Below are positions 3,206-40,175 of a stretch of DNA of 64,000 nt, in pieces. The DNA comes from Pseudanabaena sp. PCC 7367. Its GTDB lineage: Bacteria > Cyanobacteriota > Cyanobacteriia > Pseudanabaenales > Pseudanabaenaceae. The stretch spans positions 124,001-188,000 of the forward strand of contig NC_019690.1 in NCBI RefSeq assembly GCF_000317065.1, read 5' to 3'. Made by a program: the position numbers and the translations under genes. The notes below the pieces were generated by a model. It searched no databases. It was not told the DNA's origin and saw only the letters and a list, made by a program, of their open reading frames with translations. Positions within the stretch are counted from its first letter, which is position 1. Each line of letters starts with the position of its first letter.

Positions 3206-3511
3206 CTAATTATCTAAAAATTCCTGTTGCTCAATATCCTGGCTACCGTGAAGAACACGCACCACTACCAAGCGATCTGGGTAAGAGCGAAAATAAATGC
3301 AGCGCTGGCAATATGGAAAAGCTCTTAGTCCAGGCCGTATCCATTCCCTCGATACACCAGAAATACCCAACTCTGCCAATTCATACATCTTTCGTGACAG
3401 GTCACTAATGAATTGTTGAGCAGCAACAGGGTTGTCTTGAGCGATATAAGTGTAGATATTTACCAGATCATCCTGGGCAGGGGCGGAAATGATTAGACGT
3501 TTAGATTTAAT
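3206..3511 (-). CDS. ParE/RelE-family toxin, no ATG/GTG/TTG start at the 5' end
   Basis: Full-length RelE/ParE-fold toxin of about 101 residues ([16 protein letters not shown] at the N-terminus, then RMYELAELG-like helix, [14 protein letters not shown], and [11 protein letters not shown] at the C-terminus). The downstream partner of the ParD gene. The only standard start, the ATG at 3388, would delete the first helices. The open frame extends upstream to a TGA and offers only ATT (3511-3509), overlapping the 3' end of parD by 19 bases. Either it uses a rare ATT start coupled to parD translation, or the toxin has lost its start and is silent. Confidence 0.6.
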
Positions 3512-3768
3512 TGCTTCTTGCCCCTCTTGATAATGGCATCAGTTAACTGATCAGGAGAGCCATAGGCTTGCATATCGCCCGCCGCAATTGCCGCGTCACC
3601 CTCATCAATGAGCGCACGTACCTGCTGCATTTTAGATTCATAATCCTCCAGCATCCGCAACCCAGCTCTGACCACCTCACTGGCATTATTAAAGCGGCCA
3701 TTGGTTAATTGGCTAGCAATGAATTGCTCATAATGCTCACCCAGGGTATAGCTTTTATTTGTACTCAT
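3493..3768 (-). CDS. parD: ParD-family antitoxin
   Basis: A 91-residue ribbon-helix-helix antitoxin: [20 protein letters not shown] then [18 protein letters not shown] is the standard ParD N-terminus, followed by the toxin-wrapping helix ([15 protein letters not shown]). It should bind its own promoter and neutralise the ParE toxin encoded immediately downstream on the same strand. It is not closely similar to the two other ParD proteins in this window (9572-9829 and 25785-26039), so it is an independent module. Such pairs commonly stabilise mobile elements. Confidence 0.85.
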
Positions 3769-3825: not shown

Positions 3826-4512
3826 CTAGCGCTTATTTTCTAATGCTTGTCCAAATTCACTTTGGAGAATCGTGAGGCGCATTTGATGATGGGCAATATA
3901 ACCAACCCCGATCAACGTCATGATATTGATAACCAAAAGCCATGAGCTAACGCTCCCGATCATTGTCGTATTCTGGCGAGTGTGCGCGAGAGTATTTAGG
4001 GTGTTGCTTAGGTTTGTGATTAACTTCTGCTGATCGCTGGGCGGTGCGGTTTTGCTCCTGTTGCCTTGTAATTGCAAGCTCTGATTCAAGCTGTCTAAGA
4101 TTGCGATCGATTTCTGCAGTGTCTCGTTCGATGCCTGCAATCTCTTGGTCAGCGTTAAGCAGGTGTTGACGAGTCTTTTCATTAAGCCGCTCAGCTTTTT
4201 GGTGTTGTGCGCCAGTACCGTCACTGTTTCCGCTTCCTGAGATTGCACTTCCAGAGTGCTTAGGTTTGTTTGCGTCCATTGCTCTAGCTCCTGTTGAAAT
4301 GATTGAAACAGATGTTGCCATTCCTGGGGGCTATCCTCCACCAGGACTTGTAATTGCCCTAAGGCTACAAAAATGACGAAGAATTCATTCTCTGGATCAA
4401 TCTTGTATTTAAGAATAATCTCCAGCACCCGGGCTTTGACTTCAGCCTCCTGTCCAGCCAGCGCCTGATCCAACCATTGAGTATTTGGATCACTGCCATT
4501 AGTCATGGTCAT
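3826..4512 (-). CDS. Tail-anchored membrane protein paired with ParA-like ATPase (element A)
   Basis: 228-residue protein with a conserved N-terminal helical domain (KARVLEIILKY.IDPENEFF.IFVA.GQL) and one transmembrane segment near residues 185-210, leaving a short C-terminal end. The element B paralogue (29080-29760) keeps the N-domain and TM, while the middle diverges strongly. It overlaps the ParA-like gene by one base (ATGA-type junction), indicating an operon. By analogy with ParA-like/partner pairs in transfer regions it may tether the ATPase or relaxosome to the membrane; that role is inference. A second long same-strand frame lies within its 3' half. Confidence 0.7.
   Translation of the reverse strand: MTMTNGSDPNTQWLDQALAGQEAEVKARVLEIILKYKIDPENEFFVIFVALGQLQVLVEDSPQEWQHLFQSFQQELEQWTQTNLSTLEVQSQEAETVTVLAHNTKKLSGLMKRLVNTCLTLTKRLQASNETLQKSIAILDSLNQSLQLQGNRSKTAPPSDQQKLITNLSNTLNTLAHTRQNTTMIGSVSSWLLVINIMTLIGVGYIAHHQMRLTILQSEFGQALENKR
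3947..4279 (-). CDS. Possible nested gene inside the tail-anchored protein gene (element A)
   Basis: Same-strand alternative frame of 110 codons, starting at ATG 4279 preceded by AGGAG with 7-base spacing, inside 3826-4512. It encodes a hydrophilic coiled-coil-like protein (NLRQLESELAITRQQEQNRT) ending in DNDRER. The element B paralogue has a nested ORF beginning at the homologous Glu-x-Trp-Thr codons (29521), in the same relative frame, also starting with Met-Asp and ending in Glu-Arg. The outer frame is poorly conserved over this stretch. Could still be a chance open frame. Confidence 0.35.
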   Translation of the reverse strand: MDANKPKHSGSAISGSGNSDGTGAQHQKAERLNEKTRQHLLNADQEIAGIERDTAEIDRNLRQLESELAITRQQEQNRTAQRSAEVNHKPKQHPKYSRAHSPEYDNDRER

Positions 4513-5207
4513 TAGAACACCTCTGCTTTGGCAAACGACTCATAGGCTTTCCTCAAAAAGCTTTTCACCCGCTGCCGAGAGATCGGGCCAAACTCCTCAT
4601 ACTCACGCGCCTGGCTGAAAGTAAGACTAAGCTCATCGATTTTATTGCGATCGGCGGTGCCAACAAACTTAGGAAAGTCAATCACCTTGGCCCGGTAGCG
4701 ATTCATCAAACCACGTAAAGACTTATCCTTATCGACTGGTTCCCAGTCCTCACACTTACCCCAGTTCTTCACCAGGATATGGCGTACGCCGCCTTTGAAA
4801 TAATCAAGGGATTGCCGAAATAACTTCAGGCTGTCATAGCCACCATCAGTGACAAACCAGAGATAGAAATTAACCCCAGTTTCTGGCGCGATCGCCAGCA
4901 GCTCATTTTTCTCAAACCACTCTTTAACTGGAATAAACACCTGAGCTGGCAGGTTCACCAAGACCCGCTGTTCAGCGGCAGTGTTGTAGATATCATTGGC
5001 CGTGTCTTCATACCTGTCACCCTCAGAGAAAATAGCGATGCGGCAAACAGCATCACCATAGATGCGCATTAGATCTGGATTAGAGCGATCCGTATCGAAT
5101 ACCGCACAGGATATTTGATTGTCCAGGTGATATTGCAGCGCAGTGCGAGCACAAAAGCTCTTGCCAACACCACCCTTTTCGCCACCGAAAAAGTGTAAAT
5201 CTGACAT
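4512..5207 (-). CDS. ParA/MinD-like ATPase (VirC1/TraL-like), element A
   Basis: 231 residues with the deviant Walker A motif GEKGGVGKS at 9-17 (signature Lys11, catalytic Lys16) and an Asp-rich FDTDRSNPD strand near 37-45, so a ParA/MinD/SIMIBI ATPase. The C-terminal segment ISRQRVKSFLRKAYESF is conserved in the element B paralogue (29757-30512). It sits upstream of the tail-anchored protein and near relaxase genes, as with VirC1 or IncP TraL, suggesting a role in bringing the relaxosome to the coupling protein rather than plasmid partition. No ParB partner is visible. It is transcribed divergently from the PadR gene, a likely regulator. Confidence 0.75.
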   Translation of the reverse strand: MSDLHFFGGEKGGVGKSFCARTALQYHLDNQISCAVFDTDRSNPDLMRIYGDAVCRIAIFSEGDRYEDTANDIYNTAAEQRVLVNLPAQVFIPVKEWFEKNELLAIAPETGVNFYLWFVTDGGYDSLKLFRQSLDYFKGGVRHILVKNWGKCEDWEPVDKDKSLRGLMNRYRAKVIDFPKFVGTADRNKIDELSLTFSQAREYEEFGPISRQRVKSFLRKAYESFAKAEVF

Positions 5208-5417
5208 ATAGATTTGAATAAGAATAAATTACAAGCAGGCAAGACAAACTAGAGCAATCCCTATTCCTGCCTGGCTTTCAGTCGAAAGAAATTATGGAAT
5301 GCCACTTGACGAATCTGAGTAGATATAAGTAATATGATAGCCAATATATCTTATTTGTAAAGTGCTTGTTTTACTCAAGTGGCTTGCAAACAAGATGCTC
5401 TTTATCCCATAGAATAA
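5208..5417. promoter_or_regulatory. Divergent promoter region between parA-like and padR genes
   Basis: 210-base AT-rich region between divergent genes. It holds the inverted repeat GCCACTTGA (5301-5309) / TCAAGTGGC (5375-5383) and, between the arms, an AT-rich imperfect dyad around AGATATAAG...ATATATCTT (about 5331-5352). These are candidate operators for the adjacent PadR protein; a match to a defined PadR site was not established. Confidence 0.4.
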
Positions 5418-5819
5418 ATGGCCCGTAACACATCAGACTTTGTCCTGTCCGTAATCGAACAGGAAATCCTGTCCACCCTGGCAAATAATCGCCAGATTTA
5501 TGGCTTTCAGATCGCTGAAGCAGTTGCTGTGGCTAGTCAAGACAAGCGCCATATCGGGTTTGGCACCCTATATCCCAGCCTGCACCGGATGGAGAAAAAG
5601 GGATTAATACAATCATGCTGGGGCAATGAAGAAGAGGGGCCAAGGCGCAGGTATTATCACCTCACTCCCAAAGGCGAAAAAGCGCTCACAGAAATGCGGA
5701 TCTACCTGGATGCGCTTTTTGAGTGGCGGGCGGTGGCTGAAGGCGATGATTCATCTGAGGATGGCCATGGTGAGACGATCGAGGTTGCCTCCACTGTAAA
5801 GGTTGATACGAGGGGCTAG
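5418..5819 (+). CDS. PadR-family transcriptional regulator (element A)
   Basis: 133-residue winged-helix protein. Motifs EQEILSTLANNRQIYGFQIAEAV (helices 1-2), GFGTLYPSLHRMEKKGLI (recognition helix) and RRRYYHLTPKGEKAL (wing) are the classic PadR pattern. The short C-terminal part suggests the PadR-s2 type. It is followed by a 6-TM membrane protein with only a few bases between, and the same gene pair occurs at 35400-36825. PadR proteins are usually repressors released by a ligand; here the neighbours suggest the divergent ATPase gene and the downstream coupling-protein genes as targets. Confidence 0.88.
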   Translation: MARNTSDFVLSVIEQEILSTLANNRQIYGFQIAEAVAVASQDKRHIGFGTLYPSLHRMEKKGLIQSCWGNEEEGPRRRYYHLTPKGEKALTEMRIYLDALFEWRAVAEGDDSSEDGHGETIEVASTVKVDTRG

Positions 5820-5823
5820 GTCA

Positions 5824-6717
5824 ATGGAACAAGATCTTAAGTCCCAACGTAAAACGTCAATTACGCCCAGAGCCAAATTATCGGCCAAACTACCATTCTG
5901 GCTATCGCCTTTGATATGTGAAGAGTGGCGAGAGGATATAGAGCTAGCGCGGGAATATGAGATTGCCAACGGCTGCACCGGCATAGAGTTGTTTTTATTC
6001 ACGGCCAGAGAAGTAGCACCCCTGTTGCAATACCGCACCAGTCAGCTATGGCAAATCATTACGCCGAATTTCCCTGAATCATGTGCCCACTTGGAAACAG
6101 CATTTATCGCTGATTATGCACAAAATTCAATCAAGCATATCAGAGTAGTGCTGGTGATCGCCATTCTGGTATATGGCGGTTTTGGCATTCTGGACATCTT
6201 TTGTATTCCCGCTGCCACTGCCTATAGCTGGTTAATCCGCTATGCCGTTGTCTGCCCAATGGCCGTGGTAGTATTCATAGCCAGTTTTTTCCCAGTGTTT
6301 TTTAGTCAGTTTATGCAGCTGATGTTGAGCATCATGATGTTGTTTGCGGGATTGGGCATTGTGGTGATGATTGCGCTGGCCGGTGAAGATGAGTTGGGAT
6401 TTGATACCTACTATTCCGGCGTAATGATGGTTTCAATGGGCACCTTTACCTTGATGCGCTTAAGGTTCGTCTATGCCACGATCGTGGCCTGGTTGACCTT
6501 AGTGGGCTATGAGTTCACAGCGGTGTTTTACCAGCAGTTATACGTCACCGGTGAGTCATTGACAATGTTGATTAACAATAACTTCTTCTTGATTGGCGCA
6601 AATATATTGGGGATGGTGACCTGCTTTTATCTGGAGCGCTATGCCCGACGGGACTTCCTGGCTAGATACCTGATGCGCAATGACAAACCTGAGTACCTAA
6701 AACTCTTTTTCAGTTAG
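5824..6717 (+). CDS. Six-TM sensor-like membrane protein coupled to PadR (element A)
   Basis: About 297 residues: a cytoplasmic N-terminal ~105 residues, then six predicted transmembrane helices. Signature points are FGILD, WLIRY, YYSG, RLRFVYATI and INNNFFL, ending in a short ERYARRDFLARYL tail. The same membrane domain is the sensor half of the histidine kinase at 17469-18860 and of many cyanobacterial kinases and cyclases, but here no output domain is attached. The ATG at 5824, four bases after the padR stop, was preferred to the overlapping TTG at 5803. A function with PadR as a membrane sensor or sequestering partner is inferred from the repeated pairing. Confidence 0.7.
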   Translation: MEQDLKSQRKTSITPRAKLSAKLPFWLSPLICEEWREDIELAREYEIANGCTGIELFLFTAREVAPLLQYRTSQLWQIITPNFPESCAHLETAFIADYAQNSIKHIRVVLVIAILVYGGFGILDIFCIPAATAYSWLIRYAVVCPMAVVVFIASFFPVFFSQFMQLMLSIMMLFAGLGIVVMIALAGEDELGFDTYYSGVMMVSMGTFTLMRLRFVYATIVAWLTLVGYEFTAVFYQQLYVTGESLTMLINNNFFLIGANILGMVTCFYLERYARRDFLARYLMRNDKPEYLKLFFS

Positions 6718-6823
6718 CAATTATTTGAATCACCTGGCGATCTGATGATCCCATCAATACAGTTATTTCCCGAAGTTTATTTGCATCGGTTCATTTTGAG
6801 TGTCGTTTATTTTCTAAAGTACT

Positions 6824-7231
6824 ATGCACCAAGACGATCCCAATTCTGCTAAGCACAATGCCTACATCGCTATCTGCTATACCGGTACTTTTAGCTATGT
6901 GATTACAAGCCTCTATCTAGCACCTTTTGTTATCCTTGGCTGGCTCACAATCGAAATTTTAAAGTTCTGGTTTGGGTTAGTTGGGCATTATTTTGTCGCC
7001 ATCAAGCCGCTCATCTTTTTCCTTGATGTCATTCTTTTATTTCTGCGAATGTTCTGGGCATTTGGTAATGCCATTTTCGGCAGATCGCCAAAACGGAATG
7101 TATTCCACCTCATACCTCAATTTAGCGAAATGCTGCATCCCAGTCGGCTTACCTTTAGCTGGGGGATTTTCACGATATTCGTACTGCTAATTATTATGAT
7201 TGCTAGCATCTTTTCTGCCTTCTCTGGCTAG
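6824..7231 (+). CDS. Small membrane protein upstream of coupling protein
   Basis: 135 residues with three or four hydrophobic segments (about 20-50, 55-85 and 110-134). No family recognised. It lies between the 6-TM protein and the coupling protein, 44 bases before the latter, on the same strand, so it is probably co-transcribed. IncP and IncF coupling proteins often have small inner-membrane partners upstream, which makes a transfer role plausible but unproven. No clear counterpart is found in the same position in element B. Confidence 0.55.
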   Translation: MHQDDPNSAKHNAYIAICYTGTFSYVITSLYLAPFVILGWLTIEILKFWFGLVGHYFVAIKPLIFFLDVILLFLRMFWAFGNAIFGRSPKRNVFHLIPQFSEMLHPSRLTFSWGIFTIFVLLIIMIASIFSAFSG

Positions 7232-7275
7232 GTTCTCACGCTTCATTCTTCAAATCCTTTAACAATTTCATACCT

Positions 7276-9204
7276 ATGCTTACTGATAGAATTTTTGCCA
7301 GTATCGGTTCTGGCATCATTTTTTTGGCATCCTATGCCACTTTAATCTATCTGGTCATACGCCAAGATCCACATCCACTCGTGTCTGGTTTTATCGGTGC
7401 ATTGACGATCGTGATGGGTGTCTTCCAGTTTTTCAGTCTAATCATCCCTGCTGTTGGAGCCTATGCATCCAAGGGGGAGGATGGTGTTCAGCGCTATTGG
7501 ATTGCCTTTTTTGTCAATATCACAATCTTCCTATCAGTCGCTTATTTCTTTCCCTATCTGGCTTTTGTACTCATTTTCTTTCTTCCTCCTATTCTCGCTT
7601 CGATCGCGTTTGATAACTATAATCGTGCCCAGGCGGTTAAGGGCAGAGGACTAATCAACTATAAAATGGCGCATCGGCAAAATCAGCGGGCGCTGCCTGA
7701 AGGTGATTCTGGACTCTATTGGGGTGGTATTGCGGTTCCCACCCAGTCAGCGATGACTCATTTCCTGGTGGTTGGTGCATCCGGCAGTGGCAAAACCATT
7801 ACCCTACGACTCTGGATGCAATCGTTCCTGCCTGCATTGGCTTCACGGGGTCGGGCGATGATTTACGATGCCAAGCTGGATGTGATCTCCATCCTCAAAG
7901 GCATGAATGTCAGGTGTCCTACGTTTATACTCAATCCTTTTGATGCTCGCTGTGTGGCCTGGGATATGTCTGGCGATATTATTACCTATGCTGATATTGA
8001 AGCGCTGGCACATATCTTGATTCCTGAGGAAGGCCATAAAGAAGATCCCTTTTTTCGCAGTGCGGTCGTTGAGCTGGTTAAGGGGGTAGCCAGATTCTTT
8101 GTCCTCCAAGCGCCTGGGGTGTGGACGCTCAGGGATATTATTTTAACTCTGCGCTCTCTCAATACGATGAAGACTTTATTCAGTAGCAGGCCGGAGTTGG
8201 ATTTCTATCTTGAGCTGATCTCAGATAAGAAAACGGCTCAGAATATTATGGCTACTGTGCTTACGAAAATTGGCCGCTATGAGACGGTAGCTGCACTCTG
8301 GCATTGGGATAGTATTTATGATCGGCCACGAGCCAAAATCAGTTTAACCAGTTGGTCAAGGAGTAATTCGATCCTGGTATTTGGTAAGAGTAATACGGCC
8401 CGCGAATCACTCAATGCGATCAATCAGTTGATTTTTACCAGGGCGGCCCAAATACTATTGGATAAGCCGGAGGTTAGTCATCCTGAGACGTTTATCATCT
8501 TTGATGAGCTGCCCAGTGCGGGCCGGATGGATATGCTGCCATCACTCTGCACAGAAGGCCGCTCAAAAGGCGTATCTCTGGCGATCGGGTTTCAGTCGAT
8601 TAAGCATTTGGAGGACATCTACAATGAAAATATCGCCCAGACTATTATTGGTCAGTTTCGACATAAGGCAATTTTGCGCTTAGATGATCCGCCTACGGCT
8701 GAATGGGCTTCTCAGCTAGTTGGCGAAGTAGAAATTCGTCGTATTTTAGAGGGGTTTTCCAGTAATCGTGAATCTGGTGGCACTCGCTCTTGGAATGAGT
8801 CCTATGAAAGGCATCGTGCAGTCATGCCTTCTGAATTCCTGGAAATTTGGCCGATTGATCGGCAGACTGGTCAGGGCCTGACTGGTTATTATTTAACTGG
8901 TAATTCGGTCTACAAGCATTACTATCCCACTGATTTCATCAGTAAGCATCTCATTCCTAGTACGGACAGCCGCGAGAGCTTTATCCCTAGACCCACCAAT
9001 GACCAGGTGTTGCGCCCCTGGGATAGTGAGGATCTAGAACGGCTGAATATTGCACATCTGATCATGCCCCATGAATCTCTGCTGTCAGGCGATTTAGTTG
9101 ATTTTGATGAGTTTGAGGAGGACTCGGAAGATGATGACGAAGACTATATCGATGTGGATTTTGGGTTTGAAGATGATGAGGATGAAGTCTATGAACTTCA
9201 ATAA
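7276..9204 (+). CDS. VirD4/TraG-like type IV coupling protein (element A)
   Basis: 642-residue coupling protein, expected to link the relaxosome to a secretion channel and pump DNA. N-terminal membrane helices (about 5-120), Walker A GASGSGKT near 168-175, Walker B TFIIFDELPSAG near 405-416, and a TEGRSKGVSLAIGFQSI segment typical of TraD/VirD4. The last ~30 residues are almost all Asp/Glu. A homologue is at 30558-32621. No VirB-type channel genes are present in the window, so it must work with a channel encoded elsewhere if functional. Confidence 0.87.
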   Translation: MLTDRIFASIGSGIIFLASYATLIYLVIRQDPHPLVSGFIGALTIVMGVFQFFSLIIPAVGAYASKGEDGVQRYWIAFFVNITIFLSVAYFFPYLAFVLIFFLPPILASIAFDNYNRAQAVKGRGLINYKMAHRQNQRALPEGDSGLYWGGIAVPTQSAMTHFLVVGASGSGKTITLRLWMQSFLPALASRGRAMIYDAKLDVISILKGMNVRCPTFILNPFDARCVAWDMSGDIITYADIEALAHILIPEEGHKEDPFFRSAVVELVKGVARFFVLQAPGVWTLRDIILTLRSLNTMKTLFSSRPELDFYLELISDKKTAQNIMATVLTKIGRYETVAALWHWDSIYDRPRAKISLTSWSRSNSILVFGKSNTARESLNAINQLIFTRAAQILLDKPEVSHPETFIIFDELPSAGRMDMLPSLCTEGRSKGVSLAIGFQSIKHLEDIYNENIAQTIIGQFRHKAILRLDDPPTAEWASQLVGEVEIRRILEGFSSNRESGGTRSWNESYERHRAVMPSEFLEIWPIDRQTGQGLTGYYLTGNSVYKHYYPTDFISKHLIPSTDSRESFIPRPTNDQVLRPWDSEDLERLNIAHLIMPHESLLSGDLVDFDEFEEDSEDDDEDYIDVDFGFEDDEDEVYELQ

Positions 9205-15862: not shown

Positions 15863-16544
<682 letters not shown>

Positions 16545-17472
16545 GTTACAGACAAGTGAAGCACTGATTCTCAAGCCCTGGCAGGACATTTTGCGCCGGG
16601 GTAATGCTCTGATCGATGAATACCAAACGATGGCTTCCTTGAATCGGTTTGAGATGCGGAATTTAAAGAAAGCCCTGAAGCAATACACAGAAAGATTCGT
16701 TACCCCACATTTTCTCGATGCACCAGTATGGGCACGCAGCTATTACAAACCGCTGGGCTATCCTGGTGATTTTCAGGTGATGAAATATGTGTATGACCGG
16801 GGTCAGGAAGGGGAAACCCTCTACGCTCAGTTGATGCATTTCCTGGGTGTGGAGATGGGGGCATTCGTGCGCAATCGGATGCAGTTTACCCGCGATCTAA
16901 TCCAAACCCTTTTGGCGGAAAAAGACGCCCCAATTCGGATCACCAATGTCGGGTGCGGCATGGCCTATGAAGTGGCATCGTTATTAGAAACTATCGATCC
17001 TATTACCAAGCGGGTGCATTTTACGCTGGTTGATCAGGACGATCGGGCGCTGGAGCCAGCATATCTAATGGCTCATAAGCAATCGAAAAGGCATCATCCA
17101 AATGTCGTGGTAGAGAGCTTTAACACCACGTTTAAAAAGTTGACGCAACCATCGGCTCTATTTGATCAGCAACCAAGGCAAACTCTGATCTATAGTTTGG
17201 GTATTCTGGATTATTTGCCAGCGAGAAAGGCGAAACAGTTTGTGCATGGTCTATATGAGCGATTGGAGCCGGGTGGTTATCTGCTGATCGCCAATGTGGC
17301 AGATGGCCCTAACAAGCTCATGTGGCCACTCAGTTATATCTTTGATTGGGAGCTGATTTACCGTACTGAGCAAGAGATGTACCAATTGGCAACAGGGTTA
17401 GATGCTGCATCGGTTAAAGTCCAGCAAGATGCTACCAATCATGTGCATTTGCTCTTGCTCCAGAAACCCTAG
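16545..17472 (+). pseudogene. PhcB-like SAM-dependent methyltransferase, 5' truncated by Tn3
   Basis: The frame enters from the transposon end and encodes about 308 residues. It contains SYYKPLGYPGDFQVMKYVYDRG, the SAM-binding ITNVGCGMAYEVASLL, an acidic DQDD and SLGILDYLP, close in pattern to PhcB-type proteins annotated as 3-hydroxypalmitate methyl ester synthases. Those proteins usually have an extra N-terminal region, absent here. An internal ATG (16630) could give a shorter product with the catalytic core, so residual activity is possible. It converges on the kinase gene, with stop codons overlapping at CTAG. PhcB identity is a family-level guess. Confidence 0.6.
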
Positions 17473-18860
17473 AGCAGCCTTTCTGTGGGGAAGATCAGCG
17501 TGGCGGTGGTGCCTTGCTGCAGTTCACTATCCAGGGTGATTGCACCATTGTGCATCTGCATCAGGAGAGCCACATAGGGCAAACCCAAGCCGGTGCCCAT
17601 ACTGGATTGTTCGCGGATATAGGGCTCATCTACCTGTTCAAAGGGTTTTAAGACCCGTTCTAGATCCTCTTTGTTAATGCCAATGCCTTGGTCTTTTACC
17701 TTAATGTGCAAGCCATCGTCTGAGGTCTTAAGCGTAATCTTGATCGTGGCTTGTTTGGGGCTAAATTTAATTGCATTGGATAGCAGATTAACAATCATTT
17801 GTTTGGTGAGCTGCGGGTCGGCAAACAAGGTGTATGGAGTTATGGGGATATGGGTGTGAATTTGTAAATCCTTCTGTTCCAGTTGAGGGGTGACAATATC
17901 CACGGCCTCAGCGATCGTTTCTTGGACAATGAATTCAGCCTCTCTCAGTTTTTGCTGACCCGATGCCGCCTTTGAGTAATCCAGGATTTCGTTGATTATG
18001 GTAAGCAAATGTTGACCGTTGCGTTCAATCATATCGGCGTAGTTAACATAGAGTTCTCGCTTTTCATGCCAATCACCGAATAATTGACCAGTCAGTGCCT
18101 GGGCACCACCAATGACGGAAACCAGTGGCGATCGCAGTTCGTGATTCATTACGGCCAAGAAGTCCGTTTTGGCTTTATTCGCGGCATTGGCTTCGCTGAC
18201 GGCGGATAACAGAATTTGGCTATATTTGAAGTTATCGCGGGAGTACATTTCATGGATATAGACAGCGATCGCGGCCAGTAAGACTCCACCAGTAAGAAAA
18301 AATAGGTTATTGATCATGGCAATGGTTTCAATTCCCTTATACAGCGCCACGATCACGTACATGGCATAGAGGGAGATGGCCATAAACACGGTGTAGGTGA
18401 ATTTGATGAAAAACAACATCGAGCCATAGAAAAACACCATAAATAGCCCTGCATAGTAGCGTTCGGTCAGATACACATCCCCTACCGCCGAAACCCACAG
18501 TAAACTGCAACCGGTTAGCCAGATCGCGGTGGAATAAATACGTTGATAATGCTGGCGGCTATAGCGGCTGAAACTGAGAAAGAAGCTGATCAGCAGAATC
18601 GGAAAGCCAGTAGTGAGACGAATCAACCATAAATCCCAATACTCTCTGCCTGCATGGACGCTCAGCGCATAATCTAAGATGCCAAAGGTGAGGTAGACAA
18701 AGATGGCTACAAAGGTGGTGAAGCGCAGCGGCACAATAATTTTGTCATAGGCATAGCTGCTGTAGAAGGCTTCGGTGGTTGGGTCACGATAAGTGAGGTA
18801 CCAATATCGGCTGAAATCATGGTGCTGAGCATTGCTATCATCGGTGATGCCCTCGGTCAT
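17469..18860 (-). CDS. Histidine kinase with six-TM sensor domain
   Basis: 463 residues: six TM helices (about 50-210; FGILD, LWLIR, YYAG, MINNLFFL), HisKA with H240 in MNHELRSPLVSVIGG, then HATPase with LLSNAIKFSP, DQGIGI and MGTGLGLPY. All kinase boxes are present. The membrane domain is the same as in the PadR-linked proteins at 5824-6717 and 35929-36825. Beside a PhcB-like methyltransferase and followed by a receiver gene, it resembles the PhcBSR/LqsAS arrangement for fatty-acid-derived signals. The receiver gene lies 11 bases upstream on the same strand, so both are likely one operon. Confidence 0.88.
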   Translation of the reverse strand: MTEGITDDSNAQHHDFSRYWYLTYRDPTTEAFYSSYAYDKIIVPLRFTTFVAIFVYLTFGILDYALSVHAGREYWDLWLIRLTTGFPILLISFFLSFSRYSRQHYQRIYSTAIWLTGCSLLWVSAVGDVYLTERYYAGLFMVFFYGSMLFFIKFTYTVFMAISLYAMYVIVALYKGIETIAMINNLFFLTGGVLLAAIAVYIHEMYSRDNFKYSQILLSAVSEANAANKAKTDFLAVMNHELRSPLVSVIGGAQALTGQLFGDWHEKRELYVNYADMIERNGQHLLTIINEILDYSKAASGQQKLREAEFIVQETIAEAVDIVTPQLEQKDLQIHTHIPITPYTLFADPQLTKQMIVNLLSNAIKFSPKQATIKITLKTSDDGLHIKVKDQGIGINKEDLERVLKPFEQVDEPYIREQSSMGTGLGLPYVALLMQMHNGAITLDSELQQGTTATLIFPTERLL

Positions 18861-29760: not shown

Positions 29761-30512
29761 GATGTCGCCTCCGCTTGAGATTTACGTTTTTTACGGCTAG
29801 GTTTATCTGTAACTGGGGGAGTAAGCACCCGATCAAATTCCTGGTAGCATTTGCGCAGGAATGATTTGACCCGCTGCCGGGAGATGGCACCAAAGCCTTC
29901 ATATTCACGGGCTTCGCCAAAGCTAAGGCTTAGTTCATCGATCGTGTTGCGATCACGGTTACCGACAAATTTAGGTAGGCTGATCACCTGCACTTGATAG
30001 TCAATCAGTAGTTGTTGCAGTGTCTCGTCCTGCTCGAATGGCTCCCAGTCCTCGGTCATGCCGTAATTTTTGACGAATACATGGGGGATTATGGCACCAA
30101 ATGTATGCAGTGAGCGTTGAAACAGTTTTAAGCTGTCATAGCCACAATCCGAGACAAACCAGATCACCAGCTGCACGCTAGCTTCTTTGGCTAGTTCCAG
30201 GATGTCATTCTGCTCGATCCAGATTTTAAAGGGGATAAAGGTTTGAGCGGGAGTATTGCAAATAGTGCGGCAGGTGGTGGCACTATTGAAGGTGTCATTG
30301 GCGGCATCTTCTAACTTTGAACTTTCCGAAAAGACGGCTAGCCTTACCGGCATTACACTCTCATAGCAGCGTTTGAGATCGGGGTTTGAACGATCCATAT
30401 CGAAGGCAATGCAGGTTAATTGGCGATCGAGGTGGTACTCGACTAGGGCGCGGGCAGTGAAAGATTTACCCACGCCGCCTTTCTCGCCGGTAACAATAAT
30501 TTGTTCAGGCAT
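29757..30512 (-). CDS. ParA/MinD-like ATPase (element B)
   Basis: 251 residues with deviant Walker A TGEKGGVGKSFTARAL near 7-22 and FDMDRSNPDLKRCY. The C-terminal DELSLSFGEAREYEGFGAISRQRVKSFLRKCY is nearly identical to the element A ATPase, with an extra Lys/Arg-rich tail (KPSRKKRKSQAEA). It sits between the coupling-protein gene and the tail-anchored gene on one strand. A VirC1/TraL-like role in relaxosome recruitment is inferred. No ParB is nearby. Confidence 0.77.
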   Translation of the reverse strand: MPEQIIVTGEKGGVGKSFTARALVEYHLDRQLTCIAFDMDRSNPDLKRCYESVMPVRLAVFSESSKLEDAANDTFNSATTCRTICNTPAQTFIPFKIWIEQNDILELAKEASVQLVIWFVSDCGYDSLKLFQRSLHTFGAIIPHVFVKNYGMTEDWEPFEQDETLQQLLIDYQVQVISLPKFVGNRDRNTIDELSLSFGEAREYEGFGAISRQRVKSFLRKCYQEFDRVLTPPVTDKPSRKKRKSQAEATS

Positions 30513-30557: not shown

Positions 30558-32621
30558 TCAGGTCAGATCAAAGCTGTATGAGTCGTCATTGCGATCTTGA
30601 TTGTCATCATTGGTATCGCTATCGACTCCATCGTCAGCTCTTTCATAGGCCAGGCGATTGCTTTCCAGTAGCTCCTTGAGCCTTTGGCGAAACTGTTCGG
30701 TATCACTAATTGAGGCATCACTGAGTGCCTGTTCTTCTTCTAAATAATGTTGATGCTCTTCATAGGAAATGATGCTAGCTAAGCCCAACCTTTCTAAGTC
30801 AGACTTATCCCAGCTACCGAGGTATTGCAGACTGCCATCGGCAGGCACAAAATTCTGCACCGATTTATCTTTGCTGACCAGCCCGTTACTGATCGCTTCA
30901 GAGCTATTGGTGTACCAGTAGCCATAGTCACCGTTATGGAAAAAGCCAGTTACACCTGTTTTGGTATCAGGATCTGGCGATGGAATACGATTGAAGCCTT
31001 CCGGAGAAACAATATGTACTCTTTCTAGATATTCTGACTCTTTCCAGCGTTCACCAAACCAGGTGCGCTCGATATTAATTCTGAACCGCTCGCCCATACC
31101 CAGGGATTCAGAACAATAACGGGCACTATCTAAATCATTCATTTTGAGATAGCCGCGATGATAGAACTGACTTAGGATCTCCCGGGTTTGTTGGCCACCA
31201 TAAACGTTCTCAACTGAGGGTAATGATTGAGTGGCAATTATTTGGGCCCCACCCTTACTGCGGGCATTGGTTGAAAATTCGTTATGTAATGGCAGAAATC
31301 CCAGGGTCTGAAACTCATCCATCACAAACAAGGTATTTACGTCCTGGATATCTGTATCAGGACGACGCAGAATGATCTGCTGCATCCGCGTTACAATCAA
31401 TCTTGCTAGGGCACCTAACACGGACATGTTTTCAGGATCGCGGCCTAGGATCATCACCCCTTCCTGTTCCAAGATTTCGTACAAGCTGATCTTTTTGGGG
31501 CTGTTTTCCCATAGCGCTGCCACTACCGCAAAAGGTGAGAGATAAGTTTGGATCGTTACCATCACTGAATGGGTCAGCCGATCACCTTCAAGCGGGGAGG
31601 TAAACCGTTTGGTCTCAGGAATACTATTGAAAATTTTGAGCAGCCGATCTTTTGAGCGGGTGCCCAGTAAAATATCGCGCAATCCCCATTGCCCTGGTGC
31701 TTTGATTGTGAAGTAAAGGGCGAGACCTTCCAGCATATAGACACAAGCATGCCGCCAGAATTCTTCACGTACATTGTTTGGATTTGAATCTAAGGTAAGA
31801 CAGTCTCCTAAGGCACGGCAATGCGATGGTTGAGTAATATCTTTAGCAATATCCCATGCAAATGCTCTTTGATCAAAGGGGTTGAAAATCCAAAATTGAC
31901 TATATGGGTTGATACTCTGCAACAGATTCAATGTATCGCGCTTGGCGTCATAGATAATTGCACGTAAACCTTTACCAGTGCCAACATGCGGTAAGTAGTC
32001 CTGTAAGAAAAAGCGCATCGTGATCGTTTTACCTGAGCCAATTGAGCCAAGCAGGAAAAAGTTATAGGGAATCCGGGTCGAGGGGACTGGCAGGCCGCCC
32101 CAATTAACCGTCATCAGATCTGGGCGCTTCTTCTTCAGCTTTTTGACAATCGTTTCGTAAACGCGAAGGACAGTGGCATAGGGTTTGATGAAACGATATG
32201 CTTCTCCTCGCCATATTCGAAAGCGGCGGCGCACTACACCACGTATCCGTTCGATACTGGCGATCAGTGGAATGCTAATCAGTAGGAAAAGAATGATACT
32301 GAGCAGTAAGGAAATACCGAGCAGGATCAGGGTAATGCAGTAGAAGCCTAGAAATTTTAGTGGGCGGATGAATGTCCGCTCCTCTGTCACATCCTTATAA
32401 AGTCGGATGCTACAGAAACAGAGCAAGACACCCACAACTAAGGCCAGTAATATTTTGACGACGGAGAAAAATACATGAAGACCATCATCTAAATCTGTTG
32501 GCTTGACCAGGAAAACTATTAGTATCAACCAAATGATCGTGATGAATCCTATTGCGGTTTTGCTAAACAGATCGCTGAAAAAATGAGGTGGCACATAGCC
32601 ACGATGCATAGGCGCGGGCAT
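30558..32621 (-). CDS. VirD4/TraG-like type IV coupling protein (element B)
   Basis: 687 residues: N-terminal membrane helices (about 20-130), Walker A GSIGSGKT near 191-198, Walker B LFVMDEFQTLGFLP near 435-448, then STNARSKGGAQIIATQSL. The last ~25 residues are Asp/Asn-rich (DSDTNDDNQDRNDD), mirroring the acidic tail of the element A protein. Same family but clearly diverged from the element A copy. It heads a strand-sharing run with the ParA-like and tail-anchored genes. Confidence 0.87.
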   Translation of the reverse strand: MPAPMHRGYVPPHFFSDLFSKTAIGFITIIWLILIVFLVKPTDLDDGLHVFFSVVKILLALVVGVLLCFCSIRLYKDVTEERTFIRPLKFLGFYCITLILLGISLLLSIILFLLISIPLIASIERIRGVVRRRFRIWRGEAYRFIKPYATVLRVYETIVKKLKKKRPDLMTVNWGGLPVPSTRIPYNFFLLGSIGSGKTITMRFFLQDYLPHVGTGKGLRAIIYDAKRDTLNLLQSINPYSQFWIFNPFDQRAFAWDIAKDITQPSHCRALGDCLTLDSNPNNVREEFWRHACVYMLEGLALYFTIKAPGQWGLRDILLGTRSKDRLLKIFNSIPETKRFTSPLEGDRLTHSVMVTIQTYLSPFAVVAALWENSPKKISLYEILEQEGVMILGRDPENMSVLGALARLIVTRMQQIILRRPDTDIQDVNTLFVMDEFQTLGFLPLHNEFSTNARSKGGAQIIATQSLPSVENVYGGQQTREILSQFYHRGYLKMNDLDSARYCSESLGMGERFRINIERTWFGERWKESEYLERVHIVSPEGFNRIPSPDPDTKTGVTGFFHNGDYGYWYTNSSEAISNGLVSKDKSVQNFVPADGSLQYLGSWDKSDLERLGLASIISYEEHQHYLEEEQALSDASISDTEQFRQRLKELLESNRLAYERADDGVDSDTNDDNQDRNDDSYSFDLT

Positions 32622-34939: not shown

Positions 34940-35399
34940 GTGCAGCCTCCAAATATTTACAACTTCTCATTCCTTGCTAGAAAATGAACAAGCATTGAGA
35001 ATCCTTATACTTTAATAAGTCATGCATTAACTATTAGTATTGTTTAGACTATCAAATATGTCAAGTCTTTCAATATAACAAACTATACTATTTGGCAAAG
35101 CTAGTTTATAGTTTTAATAGCTGCCGATGGATGCCGAAAGATTATTCTAATGATGTGCAATTTACTGCAAAGGTATTATTGGTGGGAAAAACATCTATGG
35201 AGTTGAACCTTAATTGATCAATTGAAGTGACTGGATTCGATATCTTTCAGTAGCTTATTTATCAAATTCCTGGCAATCAGAGACCATAAATACTAAGATT
35301 GGAACAAGCAATATCAAGTTTGCAAGCTAAGTAACATATCAGATATACTCCCGATTTTATAGTTACCTTGCATTTGTTAATTATTCTGTATCCATTCCT
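34940..35399. promoter_or_regulatory. AT-rich divergent intergenic region before padR
   Basis: 460 bases with no coding frame. Position suggests promoters for the small TM gene (minus) and the padR operon (plus). AT-rich motifs such as ATATCAGATATAC (about 35336-35348) may be operators. No similarity to the element A padR upstream region was obvious by eye. Confidence 0.35.
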
Positions 35400-35834
35400 A
35401 TGCCAAGAAAGCCAATCAAAGACCTATATATTCCATCGGGTGTTGAAGAGGATATCTTGAACGCCCTATCTAATAACGACAAGTTATATGGTCTTGAAAT
35501 TATCGACGCTATTGAAGAGGCAAGTCAGGGAGAACGGAAAATCGGTCTAGGTAGTCTTTATCCCACTCTTCACAGATTAGAGAAGAAAAAAAAGCTGGTT
35601 AAATCCAGGTGGGGAGAGGAAGAGGATGGAACAGGCGGTGCGAGAAGGAAATATTACAATCTCACCCCCCTTGGCAAACGATCATTAGAAGATTTACATA
35701 AATATCGCACCAAATTGTATGAATGGCAATCACCTTCTACTAAGCAAATCTCACCTTCGGAACATGATGAAATGTTATCTAGTGGAGCTGATGTAGCATT
35801 TGGGAATGGAGGTAATCACTTAAAGAAAATATAA
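35400..35834 (+). CDS. PadR-family transcriptional regulator (element B)
   Basis: 144 residues: GVEEDILNALSNNDKLYGLEIIDAIEEAS, GLGSLYPTLHRLEKKKKLVKSRWGEEE and GARRKYYNLTPLGKRSLEDL are the winged-helix PadR motifs. Paralogue of 5418-5819 with the same immediate neighbour, a 6-TM protein. Unlike the GC-richer copy in element A, its codons favour A/T, as in the following two genes, consistent with a separate history for this segment. Confidence 0.88.
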   Translation: MPRKPIKDLYIPSGVEEDILNALSNNDKLYGLEIIDAIEEASQGERKIGLGSLYPTLHRLEKKKKLVKSRWGEEEDGTGGARRKYYNLTPLGKRSLEDLHKYRTKLYEWQSPSTKQISPSEHDEMLSSGADVAFGNGGNHLKKI

Positions 35835-35928
35835 AGCGGTGGATTTATAGAGCTAGTTTTGATTAGCCCAAATAATAAGGCAAGTGTTACTAAATACTAG
35901 TGTGACTTAACATCATGAGGTGGCAATC

Positions 35929-36825
35929 ATGACATTCAAGAGATCTAATCGAGATAAAAATCTTCCTATCTGGGTTAATACCATTGTTCCTTATGAATAT
36001 AAAGCTGATTTAAATGAGCTTTACAACAGATGGAGACATAAAGGCTTCTCTGAGTCAGAAACGATATTTAAGGTGATTCAAGCATTACTATCATTACTTT
36101 TCGCAACTGTGAGAATGATTGTTTGCGATTTATCTGACTTTATATCTAGAATATGCTTTTTCCTTTCTCCAAGATTTCCTAAGAATCTTGAGTTCTTGGA
36201 AAAATCATTTTTATATGATTACCATGCCAGATCTATTAAATACGTCAGGATCTCTCAAGTTGCGGGATTTTTGGCATATGCATTATTTGGAATATTGGAT
36301 ATATGGTGTATTCCTTCAGCCAGAGAACAAGCCTGGATTATTCGCTACGGTCTTGTATGTCCCATTTTTCTGCTTGCATTCGTACTGTCTTTCTTCAAAT
36401 TTGCCAAAAGATGGCTTCATTTCACTTCATGTTTTTTATTTGTCATCGCGGGGGTTGGAATAAGTGTCATGATTGCACTCTCAGCTCCGGAAGAGATTGG
36501 TTATACAACTTATTACACGGGCCTTATCCTTACCGAAATATTCGGGTTTACCCTGTTTCGCCTTAGATTCATTGAGGCTTCAATAGCAGGATTTCTGATT
36601 TTTCTTAGTTACGAAATAGTCGCTTTATTTGTGCAAGAAGTATTATCTAGCTATGAATCAACTATTATTTTCGTGAACAATAATTTTTTCTTTGTCACTG
36701 CTTTTATTGCTGGGATGATTGCTTGCAATCATTTAGAACACTATGCAAGGCGCGATTATTTATTTAGATATCTTGCTGAAAATCGAAATTTAAAAGAGTT
36801 CTATTTACTGGGCAAGCATTACTAG
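35929..36825 (+). CDS. Six-TM sensor-like membrane protein coupled to PadR (element B)
   Basis: 298 residues; a ~95-residue cytoplasmic N-terminus, then six TM helices with ALFGILDIWCIP, AWIIRYGLVCP, YYTG, RLRFIEASI and VNNNFFFV and the short tail HYARRDYLFRYL. Clear paralogue of 5824-6717 and same membrane domain as the kinase at 17469-18860. ATG 35929 follows GAGGTGG; a GTG at 35920 lies inside it. The hydrolase gene starts 8 bases downstream, so padR, sensor and hydrolase may form one operon. Confidence 0.7.
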   Translation: MTFKRSNRDKNLPIWVNTIVPYEYKADLNELYNRWRHKGFSESETIFKVIQALLSLLFATVRMIVCDLSDFISRICFFLSPRFPKNLEFLEKSFLYDYHARSIKYVRISQVAGFLAYALFGILDIWCIPSAREQAWIIRYGLVCPIFLLAFVLSFFKFAKRWLHFTSCFLFVIAGVGISVMIALSAPEEIGYTTYYTGLILTEIFGFTLFRLRFIEASIAGFLIFLSYEIVALFVQEVLSSYESTIIFVNNNFFFVTAFIAGMIACNHLEHYARRDYLFRYLAENRNLKEFYLLGKHY

Positions 36826-36833
36826 ATCAGAAT

Positions 36834-37646
36834 ATGAAAGAAGGGCTTAATCTTGCTATTACAGAGTGCTTCCCTGACCGAAATTCCTCAAAACCTCCTA
36901 TTATTTTTATCCATGGTGCCTGGCATGGCAAGTGGTGCTGGGAAGAATATTTTTTATCTTACTTCAAGAACCATGGATATCATGCAGTGGCCTTTGACCT
37001 TCGTGGTCATGGTAACAGCCAAGGGAAAGAACATCTACAGTGTTCAAGAATAAGCAATTATGTTGATGATCTCGCTCGGGTGATTTCAATAATTGGAGAG
37101 TCTCCTATCTTGATTGGGCATTCAATGGGAGGCTTAGTCGTACAAAAATACCTGGAGAAAAGCACAGCTGATGCCGCAGTTTTACTAGCATCTATACCAA
37201 TTTCAGGGGTTATTAGATATGCCATTGATTTTTTTCTCAGGCATCCAATAGCTATGTTTAGAACCCATCTTCAACAGGATCTTTATCAAATTGTTAAAAC
37301 TCCTGAGTTCGTTAGGGAAAATTTTTTTTCCAAGGATATCTCCGTAAGCAAGATTCAAGAATATTTCTTTAAAATTCAGACTGAATCTTATTTTGCTTCC
37401 TTGGATATGCTGTTCTTAGATCTACCTTGTCCCAGAAAGATTTTGAAGGGTACACCCATGTTAGTTCTTGGCGCTCAGAATGATGTGATTGTTAATCCCA
37501 AGGAAGTTAGAGACACAGCTTTAGCATACAAAGCACCGGTCAAGATATTTGATGATATGGCACATGACATGATGTTGGAGACCAATTGGCAACTTGTCGC
37601 TAACTTTATTCTCGATTGGCTGCAGGGGACTTGCAGTTTCACATAA
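36834..37646 (+). CDS. Alpha/beta hydrolase
   Basis: 270 residues of the alpha/beta-hydrolase fold: IIFIHGAWHGKWCWEEYF (oxyanion strand), S97 in the nucleophile elbow GHSMGG, a variable lid (about 120-195), Asp in LGAQNDVIV and His in DDMAHDMM. Substrate unknown; esterase or lipase-like activity is likely. It follows the PadR-linked 6-TM gene by 8 bases, and element A has no copy at this place. If the 6-TM domain senses a lipid or ester signal, this enzyme might make or destroy it, but that is speculation. Confidence 0.82.
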   Translation: MKEGLNLAITECFPDRNSSKPPIIFIHGAWHGKWCWEEYFLSYFKNHGYHAVAFDLRGHGNSQGKEHLQCSRISNYVDDLARVISIIGESPILIGHSMGGLVVQKYLEKSTADAAVLLASIPISGVIRYAIDFFLRHPIAMFRTHLQQDLYQIVKTPEFVRENFFSKDISVSKIQEYFFKIQTESYFASLDMLFLDLPCPRKILKGTPMLVLGAQNDVIVNPKEVRDTALAYKAPVKIFDDMAHDMMLETNWQLVANFILDWLQGTCSFT

Positions 37647-37893: not shown

Positions 37894-39939
37894 TTAGCGC
37901 CTGAGATCTTGATCGTTATTTTTAGAACGATCATCCCGCCGTTTCGGTGAAATTATTGTATGTAGATTTAGCTGCTCCAGTCTACGCTCACGGCCATAGC
38001 CCTGGTCATGCAGCTCCCGGTGAGCATCTTTAACCCTCTCAATCACCTGTGGGTGATACATAACTTCCCGGTTGATAATAAACTTACGCACATAATCAAG
38101 CTTTTGCTGCTCATCAATTCCTGTACAACGGGGACTAGCTTTCATAATTGCCGTCCTGATCTGACTAGGTGAGTAACGGGCAGCAAATAGCTTGATCGCA
38201 ATATCACGATCGGCGTTAATCCCCTCCTCTGTCACGCCCATCACATCCATATTCTGAGCCATGGCCTTACGTGCTAGTTCTTTGCGGAACTCACGGGTAG
38301 CATGACCGTTATATCCCTGCCAGTCTGGCTGTTCTAAGGCTTTCAAGGATGCATAGACACATTTATTCTGCGCTTTTTTGATTTCCTTACCAGTCAACGG
38401 CGGTAGTTTGGGTGGAGCGGGAAGCTGCTTTACGTCATGGACACTAAAAAATTGGTATATGCTTCTTGATTTAGGCTCTTTTGGTGACGCAGAAGAGTTT
38501 TTGGCTTTACTGGCCTGAGCCTGGGGTTTAGCTTTTGCCTGCTCAGATTTCACTCGCTGGTAGATCGGGTCTACGATCCGGCGCACGTAGGCATAGCGAT
38601 CAGCTGATCGCTCACGCATTAATTCAGGATAAGCATTTGCCACAATCCGCCGAATCGCTTCACGGCTCAAACCCCGCTTTGCCAAACGTTCTGCCATATA
38701 TCGATCAGCTCGGCCATAGACATTACTCACTCGTTGCCTGACCTTCTTACCCAGGACTCGCAAACTATGACGAAATGTACACCGTTGCCTGACAAATCGG
38801 CGGTAATTGTCGTGACGATCTTGATGCTGGTCTCTAAGTCGGGCAATCTTTGGTAAAGTGCGCTTGCTAGCAGCAGGTGACGAAGAACTAGCGGCATTTT
38901 CTGGTGATGCTTGCGATTCAGATTTGGTTGGCTCCGCTCGGAGCTTACTTCGTTCCCGGTCAAAACGAGCCCTTGAATAGAGATCGATCAACTGGCGCTG
39001 GTCTTCGCTAAATGTTGGGATTCTCCCCTGCCCTAAATTACTTTGCCGATCACCCCTATCTGTCTTGCTCAGATGTTTAGGTGGAAATGCCAGAATGGCA
39101 CTATCGCTTGCCAGACGAGCAAAAACATCGGATTGGCTGGCAGCAATATCAGCTTTAATCTGCTCAATCAATTCGCGCTCTAAACCAACGGCTAAACCCA
39201 TCTCTTCACGATCATATAAGCCAGATCGTTCCATCTCCTCTAATCGTTGATTTGCCAATTCAATCAAACGGTATATGTCTCCGCGATCTGTGCGGATACC
39301 CCTATTTTCTAGTTCAATTATTTTTGCACCAAGGTGAATTTGAGGGATGCGGAAAATATTTCGTTCTGCATAGCTACGATGGTCAACCCGCACATCGTGG
39401 CCAGCTCGCTCTAGGGCATCATTTACATAATCAGCCCAGGCTTTGTGATGCAGCTTTAAGGTTTGCTTTTGATCCCAGGCTTTGACTTTCTTGCCAAAGC
39501 CATTTTCATCGATCGGCCGCACTGTAAACAGAATATGGGCATGGGGATTATTACCATCAAAGTTATGGTACGCAATATCAACAATTTTTCCCTCTGACGC
39601 ATGTTGTTCTAAAACATATTGACGTACTAAGTCTTGTTTTTGCTCGTGGGTTAATTCGATCGGCAGTGCTACTTCATGTTCAAGAGCTACTAGAGCATCT
39701 TTCCGCTTTTCTGAATGCTCTACTGAATTCCATAGTTTATTGCGATCATAGACCCAGGTTGGTGCATTTAAAGGAGCAAATATCTCTGCACCATAGACAT
39801 CATCTTTACGCGTGTAATTAAATTCTAGATCGGTGCGTTCATCGTGGACAATTGATCCTGAACGATATGCAGCTGCAGCGGTTGCACTCCTCCCTTTACT
39901 TCTGGCTATTCGATTCATGCGTAAATGGTGGATAGCCAT
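37894..39939 (-). CDS. MobA/MobL-type relaxase, full length (element B)
   Basis: 681 residues from ATG 39939 (MAIHHLRMNRIARSKGRSA); an upstream ORF extension is non-coding oriT sequence. Y25 in AAYRSG and the NNPHAHILF metal strand define the MOBQ relaxase. The coiled coil after 200, a linker, a repeat near 440-490 (RADRYMAERLAKRGLSREAI) and a second near 575-625 (NADRDIAIKLFAARYSPSQI...SP) follow. It matches both element A pieces end to end, showing that those are one split gene. It diverges from the traD-like gene across oriT B. Confidence 0.87.
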   Translation of the reverse strand: MAIHHLRMNRIARSKGRSATAAAAYRSGSIVHDERTDLEFNYTRKDDVYGAEIFAPLNAPTWVYDRNKLWNSVEHSEKRKDALVALEHEVALPIELTHEQKQDLVRQYVLEQHASEGKIVDIAYHNFDGNNPHAHILFTVRPIDENGFGKKVKAWDQKQTLKLHHKAWADYVNDALERAGHDVRVDHRSYAERNIFRIPQIHLGAKIIELENRGIRTDRGDIYRLIELANQRLEEMERSGLYDREEMGLAVGLERELIEQIKADIAASQSDVFARLASDSAILAFPPKHLSKTDRGDRQSNLGQGRIPTFSEDQRQLIDLYSRARFDRERSKLRAEPTKSESQASPENAASSSSPAASKRTLPKIARLRDQHQDRHDNYRRFVRQRCTFRHSLRVLGKKVRQRVSNVYGRADRYMAERLAKRGLSREAIRRIVANAYPELMRERSADRYAYVRRIVDPIYQRVKSEQAKAKPQAQASKAKNSSASPKEPKSRSIYQFFSVHDVKQLPAPPKLPPLTGKEIKKAQNKCVYASLKALEQPDWQGYNGHATREFRKELARKAMAQNMDVMGVTEEGINADRDIAIKLFAARYSPSQIRTAIMKASPRCTGIDEQQKLDYVRKFIINREVMYHPQVIERVKDAHRELHDQGYGRERRLEQLNLHTIISPKRRDDRSKNNDQDLRR

Positions 39940-39980
39940 TTTTATTTTGCATTTTAATTGTTTTTCATTTATTCTGCCTT

Positions 39981-40044
39981 GGGGTCTTAGGGGCTGTGCC
40001 CCTAACGCGCAGGAGTTAGTCATAACTCCTATGTGCGCCCTTCG
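39981..40044. other. oriT: candidate oriT of element B
   Basis: On the minus strand reads CGAAGGGCGCACAT, then AGGAGTT / AACTCCT (7-bp stem, 40011-40017 and 40024-40030), then TTAGGGGC / GCCCCTAA (39987-39994 and 39998-40005). Order, spacing and bases match 713-785 in element A. Stems are fully paired in both while loops differ. Position between divergent traD-like and relaxase genes fits oriT. Confidence 0.62.
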
Positions 40045-40175
40045 ATTTTTCAACCTCGGGACAAATGCAAATAATGTAATTATTTTACCGTATTGTTTAC
40101 GATTTATGGGCATAATAATAGCTGGATACGGGTAAGATGATGGTATGACTGTTGCGCTAAAGTCAGGAGATTAAT

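Follow-up and report, generated by a model that had tools for sequence, protein, structure and literature searches.

The window analysed here, a stretch of 64,000 nucleotides, covers positions 124001-188000 of a 328,634-bp contig (NC_019690.1) of Pseudanabaena sp. PCC 7367. The genome of this cyanobacterium comprises two contigs, the other being 4.56 Mb long, and the smaller one is probably a plasmid. The window contains two gene pairs in which a padR gene is followed on the same strand by a gene coding for a membrane protein, with a gap of 4 nt in pair A and of 85 nt in pair B. The genes of the pairs and their neighbours are the following.

5418 to 5819, + strand: padR-A, a small PadR-family repressor of 133 aa (PF03551, 70.4 bits, E 1.3e-19; PadR chains of the PDB to E 2e-13)
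5824 to 6717, + strand: membrane receptor A of 297 aa, consisting of a PadR-partner domain and a six-helix receptor domain (37% identical to the product of 35920-36825; AlphaFold model)
35400 to 35834, + strand: padR-B, 144 aa (PF03551, 70.2 bits)
35920 to 36825, + strand: membrane receptor B of 301 aa, built like receptor A
36834 to 37646, + strand: alpha/beta hydrolase (PF12697, E 2.5e-24), starting 8 nt after receptor B as counted on the sequence
798 to 2330, + strand: MobA/MobL relaxase A (PF03389, E 1.6e-61)
37894 to 40113, - strand: MobA/MobL relaxase B (PF03389, E 1.5e-72), a paralog of 798-2330 with 34% identity
7276 to 9204, + strand: type IV coupling protein A, TrwB-type (PF10412, E 1.7e-50)
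30558 to 32621, - strand: type IV coupling protein B, TrwB-type (PF10412, E 3.7e-34), a paralog of 7276-9204 with 27% identity
6824 to 7231, + strand: small hydrophobic ORF separating receptor A from coupling protein A, no Pfam match

The pairs at 5418-6717 and 35400-36825 had been reported in a preliminary description of this DNA, and the PF03551 matches and ORF positions confirm that they are real and correctly placed. Both PadR proteins lie above the PF03551 cut-off of 27 bits, which places them in the PadR family, and they account for two of only three PF03551 genes in the whole genome. They are 40-45% identical to each other, and the two receptors share 37% identity (E 8e-66). Neither receptor matched any family of Pfam or NCBIfam. 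The hydrolase gene is probably in one operon with that of receptor B.

As also reported, transfer genes accompany each pair, with MobA/MobL relaxases and TrwB-type coupling proteins near both. The idea of a repeated module was right as to the repetition and too narrow as to its extent, since the relaxase, the coupling protein and a ParA-like gene (4512-5207, with a 55% identical paralog at 29826-30512) are paralogous too. The padR pairs sit in two diverged and rearranged copies of one mobilisation module, one pair in each. In copy A, padR, the receptor gene, the small ORF and the coupling-protein gene are co-directional, and no terminator-like site was found between them on that strand. In copy B, padR and the coupling-protein gene are divergently oriented. 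Going by position, both arrangements would allow PadR to control the coupling-protein gene.

The PadR-partner domain

The membrane proteins had been described as receptors without an output domain, which does not hold. Their N-terminal three-helix domain, missing from the related kinase of the window, is a conserved PadR-partner domain.

5881 to 6069, + strand: PadR-partner domain of receptor A, three helices at the N-terminus, about residues 20-82 (E 4.5e-4, profile without window sequences)
35938 to 36150, + strand: N-terminal PadR-partner domain of receptor B (E 5.2e-7, profile without window sequences; hhalign; model)

The kinase encoded at 17469-18860 aligns with the receptors only from about residue 80-93 on, so that the first ~75 receptor residues have no counterpart in it. 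A similar stretch, LPxWxxxxLPEEWxxDLEELxxxWxxxGC, is found in padR-adjacent proteins devoid of the six-helix part (Anabaena cylindrica, Calothrix plasmids), and the domain profiles were built from it. With a 10-sequence profile containing no rows from this genome, the only matches at E<0.01 outside the training set, among 1158 ORFs, were the two window proteins (4.4e-6 and 6.8e-4). Residues 14-62 of receptor A are 45% identical to a padR-adjacent protein of Calothrix parasitica (locus L046; tblastn E 3.5e-9), a pairwise match that supports the receptor A domain by itself. Aligned with the cyanobacterial family using hhalign, the window domains reached 97% with a score of 55.8, compared with 16.8 for the best of 100 column-shuffled controls. 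They are divergent members of that family (E 4.5e-4 to 5.2e-7). In the AlphaFold model of receptor A, the domain consists of a short, a medium and a long helix (pLDDT mostly 85-94). The receptor B domain modelled alone has the same three-helix layout, with helices at residues 11-16, 19-35 and 39-76 (mean pLDDT 75).

An enlarged profile, from which the window, L006 and L007 rows had been excluded, matched 45 of 1744 ORFs at the threshold of E<1e-3, including both window proteins. In 44 cases padR is the gene immediately preceding the match; for the remaining one (L072), the preceding padR is truncated at the end of the contig. The majority of these proteins are rows of the profile itself, and the independent values are those of the leave-out runs: 1.1e-8 for a protein of Leptobacterium (Bacteroidota; L073), 5.2e-7 for receptor B, 8.1e-5 for the Trichormus protein and 4.5e-4 for receptor A. 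Many of the loci come from closely related Nostocales, so the 45 matches do not amount to 45 independent events. Scanning GTDB contigs with a PadR alignment yielded 36 loci, and a first profile detected the domain in a neighbouring gene at 30 of 33 cyanobacterial loci. A search of 18 whole genomes gave 16 domain matches, every one of them at a padR locus. Because several of these genomes were picked for having the pair, what is informative is the lack of any extra copy elsewhere. Conserved pairing in other genomes had been set beforehand as the test of the idea, and both the 45 profile matches and the 16 genomic ones bear it out. At two loci (L047 and L049), padR has no recognisable partner.

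The domain is C-terminal in the other partner proteins and N-terminal only in receptors A and B and in a protein of Trichormus plasmid D. With 0-5 membrane helices predicted from simple hydropathy in the partners, the domain and padR are the constant elements and the sensing part varies. As far as sequence profiles tell, the family is spread through cyanobacteria, has one Bacteroidota member and is absent from Pfam and NCBIfam.

Some loci depart from the simple pair. The third, chromosomal padR of Pseudanabaena sp. PCC 7367 (L121) overlaps by 4 nt a gene at 3895-4623 whose product looks domain-like by eye (MAPEEW...), and with its own row excluded it remained unrecognised (E about 6). Leptolyngbya PCC 7375 (L053) has one padR followed by two consecutive partner-domain genes, at 3326-3748 and 3885-4934. 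On Trichormus plasmid D (L007), padR precedes two genes for six-helix-type proteins; the product of 5440-6228 has the partner domain and ends before helix 6, and that of 6576-7448 lacks the domain.

The layout is reminiscent of HAAS, the domain that forms with PadR a dyad published as an alternative to two-component systems (PMC11237479). The family could be a divergent HAAS missed by the Pfam model, given its matching three-helix layout, its obligatory padR neighbour and the known occurrence of HAAS N-terminal to 6TM domains. We consider this rather unlikely, and it would bear on the name of the family while being compatible with the switch mechanism proposed below. The PF22564 (HAAS) model matched none of 30 family members at E 10, and no HAAS match was found in the Pseudanabaena sp. 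PCC 7367 genome. Neither window domain has the GxP motif in helix 3; in some relatives GxP occurs, but in the loop that precedes this helix. As the PF22564 model and the helix-3 GxP both fail, HAAS membership was not adopted. Profile-profile comparison gave a probability of 0.4% (hhalign), which is weak evidence as the HAAS set has six rows only. Searching the PDB by sequence with the domain gave no credible match, the single one returned being to a short helix. Structure searches with the isolated domain, by Foldseek and VIA-align, produced no clear match either, so that the lack of HAAS structures in their lists is uninformative. In another class of the same phylum, padR lies beside orthodox HAAS proteins with an LGxP motif (L026, L038), so both partner types occur in one phylum.

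The nearest named model is NF038404 (permease prefix domain 2), which matched 2 of the 30 members, with a best E of 0.026, below the curated cut-off. By hhalign, the probability was 66-75% and the score 27.7, with 17.7 for the best shuffled control. Going by these alignments, the domain may be related to this prefix domain.

The six-helix receptor part and its kinase relative

Beyond the partner domain, the receptors consist of a membrane part with a homolog elsewhere in the window.

6091 to 6684, + strand: six-helix receptor domain, residues 90-287 of receptor A (AlphaFold helices; structural alignment)
17469 to 18860, - strand: histidine kinase (HisKA and HATPase_c) with a homologous six-helix sensor and no PadR-partner domain (E 1e-14 in BLASTP, aligned with residues 93-278 of receptor A)

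The receptor A model places the helices at residues 90-127, 135-153, 160-185, 192-210, 215-235 and 243-286, with moderate confidence in the membrane part (pLDDT 54-79), and hydropathy analysis with a strict cut-off detected five of the six. Charge is concentrated at both ends of the protein, in line with both being inside. VIA-align superimposed the model on Pseudomonas ImcA (8wcn) with Z 17.7 over 198 residues (rmsd 2.4 A) and on ten membrane adenylyl cyclase entries with Z 12.8-17.2, the best being adenylyl cyclase 9 (7pd4, 17.2). The first unrelated row was a designed protein at Z 9.5. Foldseek returned no match to receptor A below E 0.001, and it is thus VIA-align that provides the fold assignment. 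On this model, the predicted six-helix part has the adenylyl-cyclase/ImcA-type receptor-anchor fold. Both receptors end about 10-30 residues past helix 6 and have no C-terminal cyclase, GGDEF or kinase effector.

The preliminary description equated the membrane domain with the sensor half of the kinase. The two are homologous rather than equal, with 27-31% identity (E 1e-14 by BLASTP, 7e-9 in the genome search). A SAM-methyltransferase-like gene at 16303-17472 of the window is convergent with the kinase gene and adjoins a resolvase. No homolog of the kinase sensor half was found outside this genome. A limited first look at 386 cyanobacterial genomes found the six-helix protein only in this one, and among PLSDB plasmids it was present only on Trichormus plasmid D. 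None was found in IMG/VR, nor in GTDB contigs searched with two peptide patterns only. The six-helix protein is likely rare.

ImcA, a diguanylate cyclase, contains a domain of six helices (PMC10904736). Six-helix anchors, a design also seen in the quorum-sensing kinases CqsS and LqsS, can be receptors for lipophilic ligands, and the anchor of Rv1625c can be replaced by CqsS to obtain ligand control (PMC4821796).

A proposed membrane-to-DNA switch

With a probability of roughly 0.68, we propose that each pair is a two-protein membrane-to-DNA switch in which the receptor controls PadR directly through its N-terminal docking domain. The small PadR dimer would repress a promoter, most likely that of its own operon, and perhaps also the adjacent coupling-protein genes, as their position suggests. 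The receptor would be a membrane protein whose ends are both predicted to be inside, and its six-helix part would sense a membrane-soluble ligand or the state of the membrane. The N-terminal cytoplasmic three-helix domain, that of the cyanobacterial PadR-partner family, would serve to dock PadR. A change in the receptor would pass through helix 1 to the docking domain, which would then take up or reshape PadR and thereby alter repression. That the membrane protein controls PadR directly, as put forward earlier, is the best reading of the conserved pairing; the route differs, as it would involve the N-terminal domain and not a receptor devoid of output.

The regions upstream of the two padR genes are the following.

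5208 to 5417: divergent regulatory region upstream of padR-A; its best inverted repeat is not better than shuffles (18/60 as good)
34940 to 35399: divergent regulatory region upstream of padR-B; an imperfect repeat at 35321-35372 is not better than shuffles (32/60)

A search for operators upstream of padR-A and padR-B, as inverted repeats or as the Anabaena-type motif, found none. At the Anabaena-type loci, TTGNCA, TATAAT and the near-palindrome ATGTATAATACAT are conserved just upstream of padR. In several Nostocales relatives ATGTATAATACAT overlaps the promoter-like element, and its conservation by the promoter suggests that padR represses itself at these loci; this motif is not present upstream of padR-A or padR-B. 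As for the third, chromosomal padR, a strong operator candidate lies upstream at L121 3481-3531. This 51-bp inverted repeat, GTGATAAATGTGTGGTATAG / CTATACCAATCATATTTCAC with an 11-nt spacer, stops just short of the start codon, and 0/60 shuffles scored as high.

Alternatively, the membrane protein might be the target and not the controller, an independent PadR answering a small molecule and repressing the downstream membrane gene. In Listeria, the PadR repressors LstR and LltR chiefly control the operons to which they belong; these code for membrane proteins, one of which has DUF1700, and LmrR binds drugs directly (PMC6624303). Nevertheless, a constant small domain on otherwise unrelated proteins with 0-5 helices, always beside padR, is hard to explain unless it acts on PadR, and we hold this alternative to be unlikely. 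The two roles are moreover compatible, and the receptor could be both target and controller.

That the pair belongs to the transfer machinery, as an entry-exclusion or mating-pair membrane protein with padR as a passenger, is very improbable: both pairs do lie within the diverged relaxase/coupling-protein modules, but the padR-domain pair occurs in cyanobacterial genomes and plasmids without nearby transfer genes, and the six-helix part has the receptor fold common to the histidine kinase of the window. No transfer genes were seen near the other padR and partner-domain loci. The association with conjugation genes thus holds on this plasmid and is peculiar to it. On several cyanobacterial plasmids (L007, L009, L010, L011, L012), such a padR is near ParA/ParB or protelomerase genes, not transfer genes.

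The direct switch would offer a reporter-ready system for seeking a natural ligand of the adenylyl-cyclase-type receptor fold, few of which are known. It would also add a direct transcription-factor output to those of this fold. The analysis defines a new PadR-partner domain family and predicts, for every member, the protein that would contact a given repressor. It is tempting to go further and imagine an adenylyl-cyclase/CqsS-type receptor wired straight to a repressor by the docking domain, with no enzyme step, which on this plasmid would set the expression of conjugative transfer genes by a lipid-like signal that the hydrolase encoded after receptor B might modify; we regard this full scenario as doubtful.

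Comparison with known systems

No relevant paper came up in a literature search for sequestration of PadR by a membrane anchor. Calling the pair undescribed was nonetheless too strong, as the HAAS-PadR dyad is published, including N-terminal HAAS on uncharacterised 6TM domains (PMC11237479); the receptor type and the partner-domain family are what is new. As in the dyad (Ravi et al. 2024; DUF1700/PF22564), a standalone PadR-like gene lies beside that of a protein with a cytoplasmic domain of three consecutive helices, present here in the predicted models. The sensor of the dyad can be membrane-bound or cytoplasmic. HAAS is often N-terminal to multi-TM sensors and always has a neighbouring standalone padR, as do all 45 proteins found here, one padR being cut by a contig edge. 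In contrast, the cyanobacterial domain is C-terminal in most partners, and in the window receptors it is joined to an adenylyl-cyclase-type six-helix receptor. We conclude that the pair probably works like the HAAS-PadR dyad and file its domain under neither HAAS nor permease prefix domain 2.

Permeases with permease prefix domain 2 are often encoded next to padR. In these transporters as well, an N-terminal helical domain with an EE-x-x-GDL-x-E helix precedes the membrane domain. However, they are FtsX-like ABC permeases, and the window receptors have no ABC parts. The Listeria LltR/Lmo0600 system resembles the pairs in that padR is directly followed by a gene for a multi-spanning membrane protein and that PadR controls its own operon. 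Lmo0600 differs in carrying a DUF1700 domain, and the passages of PMC6624303 consulted report neither an adenylyl-cyclase-type receptor nor control of PadR by Lmo0600.

As for the six-TM anchors of membrane adenylyl cyclases, ImcA and CqsS/LqsS, they share with the window receptors six helices, short loops and both ends inside; the structural scores cover ImcA and the adenylyl cyclases, and CqsS/LqsS are likened by design. The known anchors act on a C-terminal effector (cyclase, GGDEF or kinase), whereas the window receptors carry the N-terminal partner domain instead.
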